A DNA stretch of 64,000 nucleotides from a candidate division LCP-89 bacterium B3_LCP. GTDB taxonomy: Bacteria; Electryoneota; B3-LCP. Below are positions 2,604 to 23,925 of the stretch, piece by piece. The stretch spans positions 310,001 through 374,000 of the forward strand of contig NJBN01000003.1 of NCBI GenBank assembly GCA_005223185.1, read 5' to 3'. The notes under the pieces are model-generated. The model had not been told where the DNA came from, did no database searches, and saw nothing but the letters and a program-made list of their open reading frames with translations. The translations under genes were made by a program, and so were the position numbers. Position 1 is the first letter of the stretch. Each line of letters begins with the position of its first letter.

Positions 2604-2632
2604 ATAAAAAGGCGGATGCTACGTTCCGCCTT
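2604..2632 (-). terminator. Intrinsic terminator after the UGA-containing gene 2659-3417
   Basis: Read on the minus strand, AAGGCGGA and TCCGCCTT form an 8-bp stem with an 8-nt loop, followed by TTTTTATTG. It lies 26 nt after the stop of the sorting-domain half, with no terminator at the internal UGA. This suggests that both halves are carried on one transcript. Confidence 0.8.
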
Positions 2633-2658
2633 CGACCTGATCTTATTTGTGAAAGGAT

Positions 2659-3417
2659 TTACTTCATCAGTACCATTTTGCCTGAGGCAGAATGGCTACC
2701 GATATCAAGTTGGTAGATGTAAATCCCCGAAACTAATCCCGACCCATCAAAAGTCACCTCATGCACACCCGCATCCCGCCAGCCATTGACAACTGTGGAT
2801 ATCAGGCGTCCCGAAACGTCGTAAACTGCGAGGTTTACCAGACTCGAAACTGGCAACTCGAAACTAATAACTGTGGTCGGGTTGAAGGGGTTGGGGTAAG
2901 CCTGGATTACCGGGTAGTTAACAGGTATTGCTTGAGTGTTTGTGTTCTCCCATCCTGAAAGGTTCCATCCCGATCCGGGATGATCGCAGTCTCAAGCGTA
3001 TTTCAGGAAGGTAAATTCATCACTGTCGATAATCGTACCCGGATATTCACCAGCATTACAGCGATAGGTATATGTTCCGTAAGGGGCACCGAAAGGAACG
3101 TTCTGCGTCATCGTTCTCGTGAGCAGACCACCAGAAGGCAATTCCAACCCCTCTCGCAGAATAATGGGTCCAAATAGAGTTGTGTCGGGCAGGACGGCTT
3201 CAATCCAGGTATCGAACGTATCCGATACGGAACCCACATTCTCGATATCCAAGATGTAATCAAATGATCCTCCGTAAACAGGGATGGTAACTGGTGGATC
3301 TACGGGGGTCAACGTTACCTGAAGGGTGGATCTCGCTTCTGCGACATAGATCAAGCAGCAGACACATAATGAGAACCGAACGAAAGCAGTCCACCATAAA
3401 CTTGATTTACTTTTCAT
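2659..3417 (-). CDS. Short T9SS-type surface protein with in-frame UGA (candidate selenoprotein)
   Basis: Two open frames in the same phase are separated by one TGA (2992-2994, codon 142); read through, the product has 252 residues. The first half is a signal peptide (residues 1-28) plus the Ig-like module shared with the neighbours (VTLTPVDPP, GGSFDYIL, DSDEFTFLKYA). After the UGA the frame continues as DCDHPGSGW and then a complete sorting domain (AYPNPFNP to KMVLMK), with no other stop. Without recoding, the product would lack its sorting domain. UGA is followed by Asp-Cys, giving U-x-C, and by the hairpin at 2965-2983. The start has AGGAGG seven nucleotides upstream. A simple nonsense mutation is the alternative; the two other UGA genes in this window argue against chance. 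Confidence 0.7.
2965..2983 (-). promoter_or_regulatory. SECIS-like hairpin downstream of in-frame UGA
   Basis: In the mRNA sense, UCAUCCC (2983-2977) pairs with GGGAUGG (2971-2965), giving seven pairs of which one is G-U. The loop is GGAUC (2976-2972). The loop begins at nucleotide +16 after the UGA. Known bacterial SECIS elements have a small apical loop 16-37 nt after UGA with G in the first two loop positions; this fits at the lower limit. Its function is inferred. Confidence 0.5.
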
Positions 3418-3462
3418 TGCTTCACCTCCTATGATACTTTTTTTCAGAATGTACGGAATATG

Positions 3463-19399: not shown

Positions 19400-20824
19400 A
19401 TGTTTCAGATTAAATCATTAATTACAGCTTATGCACTGCTTGTTGTTTTAGCAGTAACAACTTCCTTTGCGCAGCCGATAATCAGCGGACAACAGTCGGG
19501 TACTTTGGGACCCGAGACTTACATTGTGAATGGTGACATACAGGTGCTTTCCGGTCAAACGTTGACCATCATGCCAGGAACCGTTTTCCTGCATAACGGC
19601 AACCATACCTGGGAGATATCCGGTCAGTTAAACGCCGAAGGCACCGAAACGGACAGCATCAAATTCGTGCGCCAGGATCCCATCGATGAACACCGCTGGG
19701 GTGGCATTCGCTTTCTTTCAGGATCATCCGATCAAAGTTCGATTGATTACTGCGTGATAGATCACTGTTTTCACGATATATTCCCATTTGGCAACTATGG
19801 AGCGGGAATATTCATTGACGGAATATATTTAGAGATAAGCAACTCTCGAATTTCAAACTGCCTGAATAACTGGGAAGGTGCTGGTATTTACGCTTATAAT
19901 GCCACCGTTATCACTTCCCATTGCCTGATCGTGGATAACAGCACCGAGGGTGAAAGCAACGGTGGAGGGATATATCTTTTTAATTGCCCACAAGGAGTCA
20001 TAGAATATTCGGTAATTGCCAGAAACGCAGCTACCGGCACGTGAGACCAATGTGGAGGTGGCGGGATCCGCTGCGATAATTCACCAACTGAGATCATCTA
20101 CAATCAGATTTTCGATAATACCTCGCTGATGTTCGGTGGGGGTATTTATGCGGATTCATGTTCTGTGCATCTGGTGAACAATACCATATCACAGAATGTA
20201 TCGGAGGTAATGGAACCTGAAAGTAGGGGTGGCGGGATCTTCGCCAAGCCGACGGCCGATTATTATGGTGAAAACAATATAATCTACGATAACGATGCTT
20301 TTGGAGATCCGGAGTATTCCGGTACTGCCGCACTTAATTATAGTTGCTGTGCAACGACCCTATCTGGCACGGACAACATCACTGATGACCCTCTGTTTGT
20401 CGATCCTTCAGTCGATGATTTCAATTTACAGGAGTTATCACCCTGCATTGATACCGGTGACCCACTAAGCCCCTATGATCCGGACGGCACGCGCGTAGAT
20501 ATGGGAGCACTCTATTACGATCAGTCTGCCGGTGTGATCATCAGCCAGATCGATCATCCATTTGAGTTCAGACTGGAACCTGCATATCCCAATCCCTTCA
20601 ATCCTGTTACTAATATAGCTTTCAGTCTGCCAATAGCAGGGGATGTGATATTAGGAGTCTACAATATACAAGGATCTCAAGTGGCTACACTCCTTGATGA
20701 ATGGCAAAATGCAGGTCGCCATGATGTGACCTTCGTCGCAAATAACCTTAGTTCAGGATTGTATATTGTAAGGTTACAAGCGGGAGAGTTCCATACCTCC
20801 CAAAAAATTGTATTGATGAAATGA
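19400..20824 (+). CDS. Beta-helix T9SS-type cargo with in-frame UGA, copy 1 (candidate selenoprotein)
   Basis: One reading frame of 474 residues broken only by TGA at 20042-20044 (codon 215). The first part has a signal peptide (1-25, SFAQ), an N-terminal module (TIMPGTVFL, HRWGGIRFL) and beta-helix turns (GAGIYAYN, GGGIYLFN). After ...ARNAATGT-UGA-DQC the same helix continues as GGGGIRCDNSP and GGGIYADSC. It closes with CIDTGDPLSPYDPDGTRVDMG, and the sorting domain (YPNPFNPVT to KIVLMK) follows. The UGA falls in a turn between helix rungs and makes U-x-x-C. In the 9573-12098 paralogue the aligned turn has Ser for U and Cys for Cys. Truncation at UGA would leave half a helix without a sorting domain. 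The translation start has AAGG upstream. Confidence 0.75.
20058..20074 (+). promoter_or_regulatory. SECIS-like hairpin downstream of in-frame UGA, copy 1
   Basis: GUGGCG (20058-20063) pairs with CGCUGC (20069-20074), with two G-U pairs, leaving the loop GGAUC (20064-20068). The loop starts at +20 after UGA. The loop could be closed further by a G-C pair to GAU. Twenty-six nucleotides from 20051 to 20076 are identical to 21568-21593. Confidence 0.55.
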
Positions 20825-20925: not shown

Positions 20926-23925
20926 ATGGAAAAACTGCTGAAAGTTTTAATGCTGTGCCTGCTGGTAGCGGGTTTTGCTCAGGCACAGACGTACATCAGT
21001 GGACCGCAGTCAGGAACGCTCGGACCCGGTCTCTACATAGTAGAGGGCAACATCCGGGTGATGCCCGGAGAAACGCTCACCATAGTTCCTGGTACGGACC
21101 TGCAACACAACGGCAACTGGAAATGGGAGATCTACGGACAGCTGAATGCTGAAGGTACCGAAAGCGACAGTATCTATTTTGTCCGTCAAAATCCTGTGGG
21201 TGAACATCGATGGGCGAGTCTTCGCTTTATGGAAGGTGCAGCCGACGCCAGCACGATAGACTACTGCGTCATCGACAACTGCAATATTCCCAGCGGTACT
21301 CCAAGCACCAAGTTAGGCGGCGGTATCTACACGAATGGTGTCGATATAACCGTGACCAACAGCAGAATATCTAACTGTGACGCCTACTGGCACGGCGGCG
21401 GTATTTACGCCAGTTCTGCCAATATCGTGGTAGACTATTGTCTGATCGTCGACAATACGGCTACTTCGGGCGCAAATGGCGGGGGAATTTATCTGATGAA
21501 CTGCGATAATGCAGTCATCACTAACTCCGAGATCGCGCGAAATAGCGCCACCGGTACGTGAGGTACCTGTGGAGGTGGCGGGATCCGCTGCGAAAATTCC
21601 CCAGCTACAATTACTTACAACCTCATCTACGACAACACTTCCGTTTACTTTGGAGCCGGTATTTTAGCTACTGGCTGCACTCCCGAAGTTATCAACAACA
21701 CAATCGCAGGGAACAGATGTACTTCAACTTTACCAGCCGCTAATGGTGGTGGTCTCTGGGCAAACGAAGGTGCATCATTTGAGGGCATCAACAACATTCT
21801 ATACTACAACTATGCCACGAATAATTCGGAATATGCTGGTGATGTCAGCTTCAGCTATTCCTGTTGCTCAGTTGAATTCGATGGTGAAGAAAACATCACC
21901 GATGCACCGGAATTCGTTGATCCTCAGAATTTCGATTTCAACTTGATGGTGAATTCTCCCTGCATAGACAATGGCAGTCCATTTAGTCCGCTTGATCCTG
22001 ACGGTACCTATGCTGATATGGGCGCCCTCTATTTTGACCAGGGAACCACAGCACAGCTCCGCCCGGCAGCGCCGAGCGATTTTACAGTTAGCCATAATAA
22101 TACACTGTTAATCGCATCTATGGACTGGACTAATCCCAGTCTGAATGCCATCGGAGATCCCCTTTCCGACCTGACAGGTGTAAAGGTGTATCGAAATGGC
22201 GATTTAATTGCCGACCTGACTGACGTGGTCATGGGTGAATCCTACGCTTACGATGATGATGCGGTACCGGTTGCCGGTATGTATGATTACAAACTGGCGC
22301 CCTATAACTCGTATGGTGAAGGCCTGTGGATTCAAGTATCCGCCTGGATCGGTCTGGATACACCGGGTGAGGTTCAGAACGTCATCGCCACACCCGATCC
22401 TAACGAATTGCTGGAATGTACCATCACCTGGGATGCACCGGTAGAAGGCGAACACAGCGGCTACTGGCCCACCGGATCATGGACAGGGCAGAGAGTATAT
22501 CGTGACAACGTCATGATTGTCGATCTGCTTGGTACCAATACCTCATACGTTGATAATACCATGCCCATAGCCGATTGGTATAGCTACGGTGTATCATATT
22601 ACAACGATTCAGGTGAAGGACCCATCACTACTGCAGATCCCGATCCGATCTTTGTGGGACCGCCACAGTTTGCTGAGATTCCGTACGGTTGGGTCGAAAT
22701 CGCCGGAATTGGAACCAACACCGGAATCACCATGGACGACCAAGTACAGGGACCATTTGATATAGGTTTCGCCTTCCCGTCCTACGGGTACAGCGCTTAC
22801 AGCCAGATCTACGTCTGTTCCAACGGCTGGGCGTCGTTCAACGCGGAAACCTACGGTGCTTTTACTAACGCCCCCATTCCCACTGCTGCGACACCAAACA
22901 ACCTGGTTTGTCCTTACTGGGATGATATGAATCCCACCCAGGGTGGGGATATATGGTACATGTACGATGAAGCCAATGAGCGTTTCATTGTCGAATGGAG
23001 AAATGTTCCTCATTACAGTACAGGTGGTAGTTATACCTTTGAGATAATCCTGTACCCCAATGGCGACATAGACTTCATGTACGCTCAATTGACGCCCGGA
23101 ACTGCTAATTCGGCGACGGTAGGATCCGAGAACGCCGATGGGACTGATGGAATCCAGGTTACCTTCGACGGTTCAGGTCCGCTAAATCCTGTCGCTGATA
23201 TGGGAATCAGGATTTATCCAGTTTCCTTAGGAGCACCGGACGTTACCGTTACCATGACACCCATTGGAGCACCTATAGTCCTTCCGGCTGTTGGTGGGAC
23301 ATTCGACTACAACATAGCAGTTACCAACAACGAAAGTTCTGCGGTACCTATGGACGTCTGGGTAATGGTACAATTACCTAACAGCGTCTGGTATGGGCCA
23401 GTGCTGGGTCCTGTTAACATTACCTTACCAGCGACGGTTACCATAGACCGTGATCGTCAGCAGTCAGTGCCTGGTAGTGCACCAACTGGAACCTACAATT
23501 ACGAAGGCCGCGTTGGTTATTATCCCGATGCCGTCTGGCATTCGGATAGCTTCACCTTCGAGAAATCCTCGACAGGTGATGGCGCGATAATCGAGGAGTG
23601 GTTGAATACCGGTGAGTCTTTTGAAGATCTAATGAATCAAATGGCTGCTGAATCTGTTCCGGACGTGTTCTCACTGGGACAGAACTACCCCAACCCCTTC
23701 AACCCGAGCACGACGATTAACTTCAATCTGCCACAGATGGTCAAGGTCAATCTGTCCGTGTATGACGTTAGCGGCAGGCTGGTCGCAACGGTGGTTGACG
23801 GCTATCGCCAGGCTGGCAGTCACGAAGTAACCTTCGATGGTTACGGACTGGCTTCAGGCATGTACATCTACCGGATTCATGCCGGTGATTTCATCGCCAG
23901 CGGCAAGATGGTTATGATCAAGTAA
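20926..23925 (+). CDS. Beta-helix T9SS-type cargo with in-frame UGA, copy 2 (candidate selenoprotein)
   Basis: A 999-residue frame broken only by TGA at 21559-21561 (codon 212). It has a signal peptide (1-20, FAQA), a module (TIVPGTDLQ, HRWASLRF) and a beta-helix. The UGA sits at the same turn as in copy 1: SATGT-UGA-GTC-GGGGIRCENSP, again U-x-x-C. The helix ends with CIDNGSPFSPLDPDGTYADMG. Two FnIII-like domains (about 365-565), a nidogen-like domain (about 570-765; SNGWASFN, CPYWDDMNP), the shared Ig-like module (GGTFDYNI to DSFTFEK) and the sorting domain (YPNPFNPST to KMVMIK) follow. AAAAGGAG lies seven nucleotides before the ATG. Protein-level conservation with copy 1 continues after the UGA while codons differ, which indicates that the downstream part is translated. 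Confidence 0.78.
21575..21591 (+). promoter_or_regulatory. SECIS-like hairpin downstream of in-frame UGA, copy 2
   Basis: Same stem and GGAUC loop as copy 1, with the loop beginning at +20 after UGA. The codons before the block differ (GGT ACC against GAC CAA), and so do those after it. Conservation at the nucleotide level is therefore limited to the hairpin and its edges. Confidence 0.55.

Follow-up and report, generated by a model that had tools for sequence, protein, structure and literature searches.

Within the 64-kb stretch of candidate division LCP-89 bacterium B3_LCP DNA analyzed here (the window; contig NJBN01000003.1, positions 310,001 to 374,000), a minus-strand gene, gene 2659-3417, starts at an ATG preceded by AGGAGG and runs for 141 open codons to a TGA, from which 110 further open codons lead to a TAA. 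Table 1 lists its parts together with two other UGA-interrupted genes. The source genome comprises 18 contigs and 3,794,239 bases, and its named relatives are LCP-89, Tariuqbacter and similar metagenome-assembled genomes.

Table 1. Positions of gene 2659-3417, its elements and the two further UGA genes in the window
Feature	Positions	Strand	Content or basis
Whole gene	2659-3417	-	Signal peptide, Ig-like module, proposed Sec142-Asp-Cys144, T9SS type A sorting domain; 252 codons read through
In-frame UGA, proposed selenocysteine codon 142	2992-2994	-	Frame reading and Sec machinery in genome
SECIS-like hairpin UCAUCCC-GGAUC-GGGAUGG	2965-2983	-	Loop GGAUC at 2972-2976
Cys144 codon (U-x-C)	2986-2988	-	Column without Cys in 36 paralogues
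Ig-like beta module, residues 32-139	3001-3324	-	Common to well over 100 own-genome paralogues
C-terminal sorting domain (TIGR04183/PF18962), intact	2671-2898	-	Profile match and decay test
AGGAGG ribosome-binding site	3425-3430	-	Sequence
Intrinsic-terminator-like site, 3' of sorting half	2608-2633	-	Only such site on strand; none near UGA
UGA gene A: beta-helix and sorting domain	19400-20824	+	TGA 20042-20044, U-x-x-C
UGA gene B: beta-helix, nidogen-like domain, module and sorting domain	20926-23925	+	TGA 21559-21561, U-x-x-C

Layout of the interrupted gene

Inspection of the reading frame bears out the initial annotation, which had placed a TGA in frame between the Ig-like module and the sorting domain, read Asp-Cys directly after it and described a terminator solely beyond the sorting-domain half. 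The TGA is the sole interruption, with no second stop or other lesion in the frame; translation gives D-C at this position, and the only terminator-like site on the minus strand follows the sorting-domain half. From the UGA up to the sorting domain, the frame has no ATG, GTG or TTG. The tail matches TIGR04183 (T9SS type A sorting domain) at 39.3 bits against a cut-off of 23. A domain search found no beta-helix in the gene, and the beta-helix UGA family signature ATGT-U-xx-C-GGGGIR is absent from it; as had been proposed, it is not a simple copy of the other two UGA genes, with which it shares a hairpin only. Its signal peptide, Ig-like module and sorting domain above the curated cut-off resemble T9SS type A cargo (TIGR04183/PF18962), from which it differs in having a proposed Sec codon in the linker that leads to the tail.

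An AlphaFold model of the 252-residue read-through product (mean pLDDT 85) presents the Ig-like beta module as residues 32-139 and the sorting tail as a second beta domain, with U142 in the linker, immediately past the final strand of the Ig-like module. A stop at the UGA is predicted to yield a truncated product that keeps the signal peptide and Ig-like module and loses the tail. Such a product would suit low-level UGA readthrough by a near-cognate tRNA, giving Sec-free protein partly with and partly without the tail, an explanation we regard as very improbable in that it leaves unexplained the hairpin common to the UGA families, the U..C motifs and the Sec machinery described below.

Scored with a model built without it, the sorting domain reaches 133.2 bits, above the family median of 127.9, and ranks 26th of 94. 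Judged from its sequence, the downstream half shows no decay, and neither the extra lesions nor the eroded residues of a pseudogene were found. Separately, the last 18 residues of the gene (YQLDIGSHSASGKMVLMK, window positions 2659-2760, minus strand) are identical in another sorting-domain gene of the same genome, which hints at gene conversion among tails.

The UGA site among paralogues

The Ig-like module belongs to a large family with over 300 candidate copies, and gene 2659-3417 is the sole UGA copy among about 150 own-genome matches scored. At the UGA site, paralogues mostly carry sense codons for Ser, Thr, Asp or Asn, and Cys appears in none of 36 paralogues at either the U column or the Cys144 column. 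Coding sequence is conserved on both sides of the UGA, while neither UGA nor Cys is conserved at the site among homologues. The initial annotation had looked for evidence against decoding in close relatives with a sense codon and in decay of the downstream half. The second of these can be set aside, whereas relatives proved uninformative (no orthologue in 60 related genomes) and the paralogues do carry sense codons. Since gene 2659-3417 is the only UGA copy and has no orthologue, the case for it depends on the shared hairpin. By sequence, it is probably a selenoprotein that the usual homology criterion would miss, outside the two conserved families described below.

A UGA unique among paralogues is also what a recent nonsense mutation would leave, making the gene a young pseudogene of a large family with a coincidental hairpin. 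The gene has no cargo domain, and sporadic cases exist, namely a single TAG in a relative's module copy (G001:C12) and a TAA in a gene of the same genome (L235). We nevertheless consider this explanation unlikely. Interruptions ahead of sorting domains strongly favor UGA over TAA and TAG (about 16 TGA, 1 TAA and 0 TAG in a 457-kb genome sample read by hand, with three listed TAA/TGA rows set aside as ordinary gene ends), the downstream half is intact, and a Cys stands at +2 in a column otherwise devoid of it. A base error in the metagenome-assembled genome draws on there being one assembly of the genus among those searched, but is scarcely credible: the UGA base plays no part in the hairpin, and an error would have had to strike at just the spacing that suits a rare hairpin.

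The GGAUC hairpin as an RNA element

The hairpin downstream of the UGA, with its loop starting at +16 as first described, comprises seven pairs, the stem CAUCCC/GGGAUG plus an outermost U-G, around GGAUC (MFE -12.3 kcal/mol). It shows the published bSECIS features of a G in the first two loop positions, a loop of 3-9 nt, a stem of 4-16 bp and an MFE of at most -7.5 kcal/mol (PMC13188914). Counting from the UGA to a 5-nt loop gives a spacing of 15 nt, which becomes 16 nt when the inner G-C is taken as paired, the state it has in the predicted fold; the published range is 16-37 nt (PMC13188914).

Generic hairpin stability was rejected as evidence, being uninformative: the folding energy is not unusual for the composition (z -0.25), and 39% of synonymous recodings of the peptide give some G-loop hairpin. 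A hairpin with G near the loop start is present at 19% of comparable paralogue positions, so that a generic hairpin says little and the GGAUC loop is the informative part. A GGAUC hairpin arises in 1.6% of synonymous recodings (p = 0.016), that is to say, the peptide itself makes it easier to form, and none was found at 261 equivalent paralogue positions. The window holds just three GGAUC hairpins with a stem of at least 5 bp, one per UGA gene. The 457-kb sample, which covers a 393-kb part of the genome plus the 64-kb window (915 kb counting both strands), holds 24 of them, 14 of which follow a TGA interrupting a long frame. GGAUC hairpins of at least 6 bp without a preceding interrupting UGA number three in 915 kb of strand, from which our own arithmetic gives a chance expectation of ~4e-5 for such a hairpin in the 11 allowed positions after a given stop; this counts against a nonsense mutation that merely happens to precede one.

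The two further UGA genes claimed in the initial annotation are both real, although their loops start at +20 and not at +16. A comparison of 45 UGA/GGAUC sites places the loop start between +16 and +20, with 19 nt before the loop in 37 sites, 16 nt in seven and 15 nt solely in gene 2659-3417; a Cys lies within 10 residues downstream of the UGA in all 45. In an alignment of 38 sites that leaves out gene 2659-3417, the GGAUC loop is invariant, 97.4% of stem cells are paired, and five of six pairs have changed on both sides (16 double-sided cells versus 2.1 in shuffles). Some compensations are synonymous, with a downstream Leu (CTC) or His (CAC) replacing Cys (TGC) alongside a matching wobble change in the upstream Gly codon. 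The codon frame of the loop differs as well, reading GGG ATC in beta-helix genes, CGG ATC in FG-GAP genes and GGA TC in gene 2659-3417. Because the stem covaries around an invariant loop, the GGAUC hairpin is, on comparative sequence evidence, an RNA signal. Together with the differing codon contexts and several unrelated architectures, this supports the original suggestion that the shared loop reflects RNA function rather than protein descent.

Conservation of UGA at its site distinguishes two families. For the beta-helix proteins, a search of 41 genomes with the UGA region of gene B returned best matches (31, down to 40-45% identity) that each contain exactly one TGA, with weaker matches being mostly ordinary beta-helix proteins without TGA. 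For an FG-GAP (beta-propeller type) secreted family, the best 19 matches each contain exactly one in-frame TGA, and the members read have Cys immediately after the UGA (U-C). One FG-GAP UGA gene (L009:1-1143, minus strand, C18; homologues L161-L173) carries the hairpin UCCAC-GGAUC-GUGGA and adjoins selD and a tRNA-Sec. In two FG-GAP homologues from single-SelB genomes, the equivalent position has the loop AGAUG and a stem with compensating changes.

The covariance model R1 does not list the hairpin of gene 2659-3417 because R1 mostly encodes beta-helix coding sequence; it was rejected as a detector for this gene and used for the family only. An exact-pattern search with GGATCAGGGATGG carries no meaning, as the pattern was mistyped.

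Several other interrupted genes were observed along the way. A second beta-helix UGA subclass (L245, L246, L249, L240, L244) has its loop at +17 and U-x-x-x-C (GUGSLCSGIYC) or a farther Cys, distinct from the +20 class. A beta-helix UGA gene with a GGAUC hairpin (L242:15057, minus strand; C16:55,057) has another stop 20 codons upstream in frame and is possibly a decayed family member; its hairpin is counted among the 14 that follow an interrupting TGA. One of the roughly 16 TGA interruptions, in an amidohydrolase gene (L247:14615, minus strand, C2; YtcJ-like by our own reading) with a sorting tail, lacks the GGAUC element; here the context is GEPSG-UGA-LLE, and GCUGG-AGAUG-CCAGC lies just 7 nt past the UGA; this TGA may encode Sec or else be a plain nonsense mutation.

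Selenocysteine machinery and proposed decoding

The genome encodes SelA, SelB, a Sec-type SelD and tRNA-Sec, as expected of a selenoprotein-producing organism. Two tRNA-Sec genes (anticodon UCA), two SelB and two SelA are present, and by our own reading of the frame, SelD contains CAG-UGA-GCA just upstream of a tRNA-Sec. Reassignment of UGA (code 4 or 25) was rejected because UGA also terminates gene A and a tRNA-Trp of the genome has the anticodon CCA.

We consider the UGA of gene 2659-3417 very probably a selenocysteine codon. The evidence is wholly computational and combines the machinery genes, the association of UGA with the hairpin, its covariation and the intact downstream half; the machinery, hairpin and downstream half likewise favor the initial claim that this UGA is decoded. 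For gene 2659-3417 itself, what we infer is that the UGA is decoded, which residue it specifies, that the protein is exported and what the U-C pair does. SelB carrying Sec-tRNA-Sec would bind the GGAUC hairpin just 3' of the UGA, Sec would be inserted, and the ribosome would continue into the sorting domain. The read-through protein would then be exported and attached or released via a T9SS-like route, with Sec142 and Cys144 (U-D-C) in the linker probably serving as a surface redox or metal-binding pair. When selenium is absent, translation would end at the UGA, leaving a protein that lacks the sorting tail.

The proposed arrangement resembles that of bSECIS selenoproteins (PMC13188914) in the order of UGA and stem-loop, the GG at the loop start, the 4-16 bp stem, the close spacing, the U with a nearby Cys and the presence of SelA, SelB, SelC (tRNA-Sec) and SelD. 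It departs from the catalogued families in that one invariant loop recurs across unrelated secreted architectures and that no Cys homologue was found at the site in gene 2659-3417. Of the 119 prokaryotic selenoprotein families inventoried in 2026, most of them thioredoxin-fold or redox enzymes, none is of beta-helix, FG-GAP or sorting-domain type (PMC13188914). For this very assembly (GCA_005223185.1), the deep-Sep paper counts 4 known selenoprotein genes and 0 new ones; its authors state that selenoproteins lacking Cys homologues may be lost to their homology filter (PMC12013277).

Doubling of the machinery extends beyond this genome. In a SelA count covering 17 genomes, each of G000-G005, G010 and G015 has two SelA; SelB is likewise doubled in seven of these eight, G003 being the exception. 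The remaining phylum members tested carry a single set or no set at all. The search for beta-helix UGA/GGAUC genes gave confident hits in these eight genomes and no others. The tRNA-Sec sequences split into two types, both present in the six members of the window's family, with one tRNA-Sec seen in G010 and G015 (genomes 77-79% complete). The SelB tree joins one copy to the single SelB of the neighboring family and sets the other apart as a diverged extra type (loci of the second SelB, tRNA-Sec and SelA: L001, L002, L010, L214-L233, L272-L275). Multiple tRNA-Sec copies are known, for example in two operons of Photobacterium profundum 3TCK (Secmarker, PMC5330540), and such genomes likewise have more than one tRNA-Sec and sometimes further sel genes. 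What differs here is that two SelA, two SelB and a pair of tRNA-Sec types that have clearly diverged recur throughout a family of genomes, and that the doubled set coincides with GGAUC-loop secreted genes. A literature search found no report of duplicated selB or of secreted bacterial selenoproteins of these types. We tentatively raise the possibility of two parallel Sec systems, in which the second SelA/SelB/tRNA-Sec set might serve the GGAUC-loop SECIS of many surface selenoproteins (beta-helix, FG-GAP, Ig-like), the portable hairpin seeding new UGA sites in unrelated secreted genes.

Insertion of Sec under the direction of a bSECIS is an established mechanism; what sets the present case apart is the classes of protein involved, the loop they share and the doubling of the machinery. 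UGA genes of this kind are easily split or annotated as pseudogenes. If the reading is true, Sec would be used far beyond the known redox enzymes, on the bacterial surface and in secreted families with many members per genome, and the single invariant loop across unrelated genes, combined with the doubled Sec machinery, would make it directly testable whether SelB paralogues differ in the SECIS elements they recognize.
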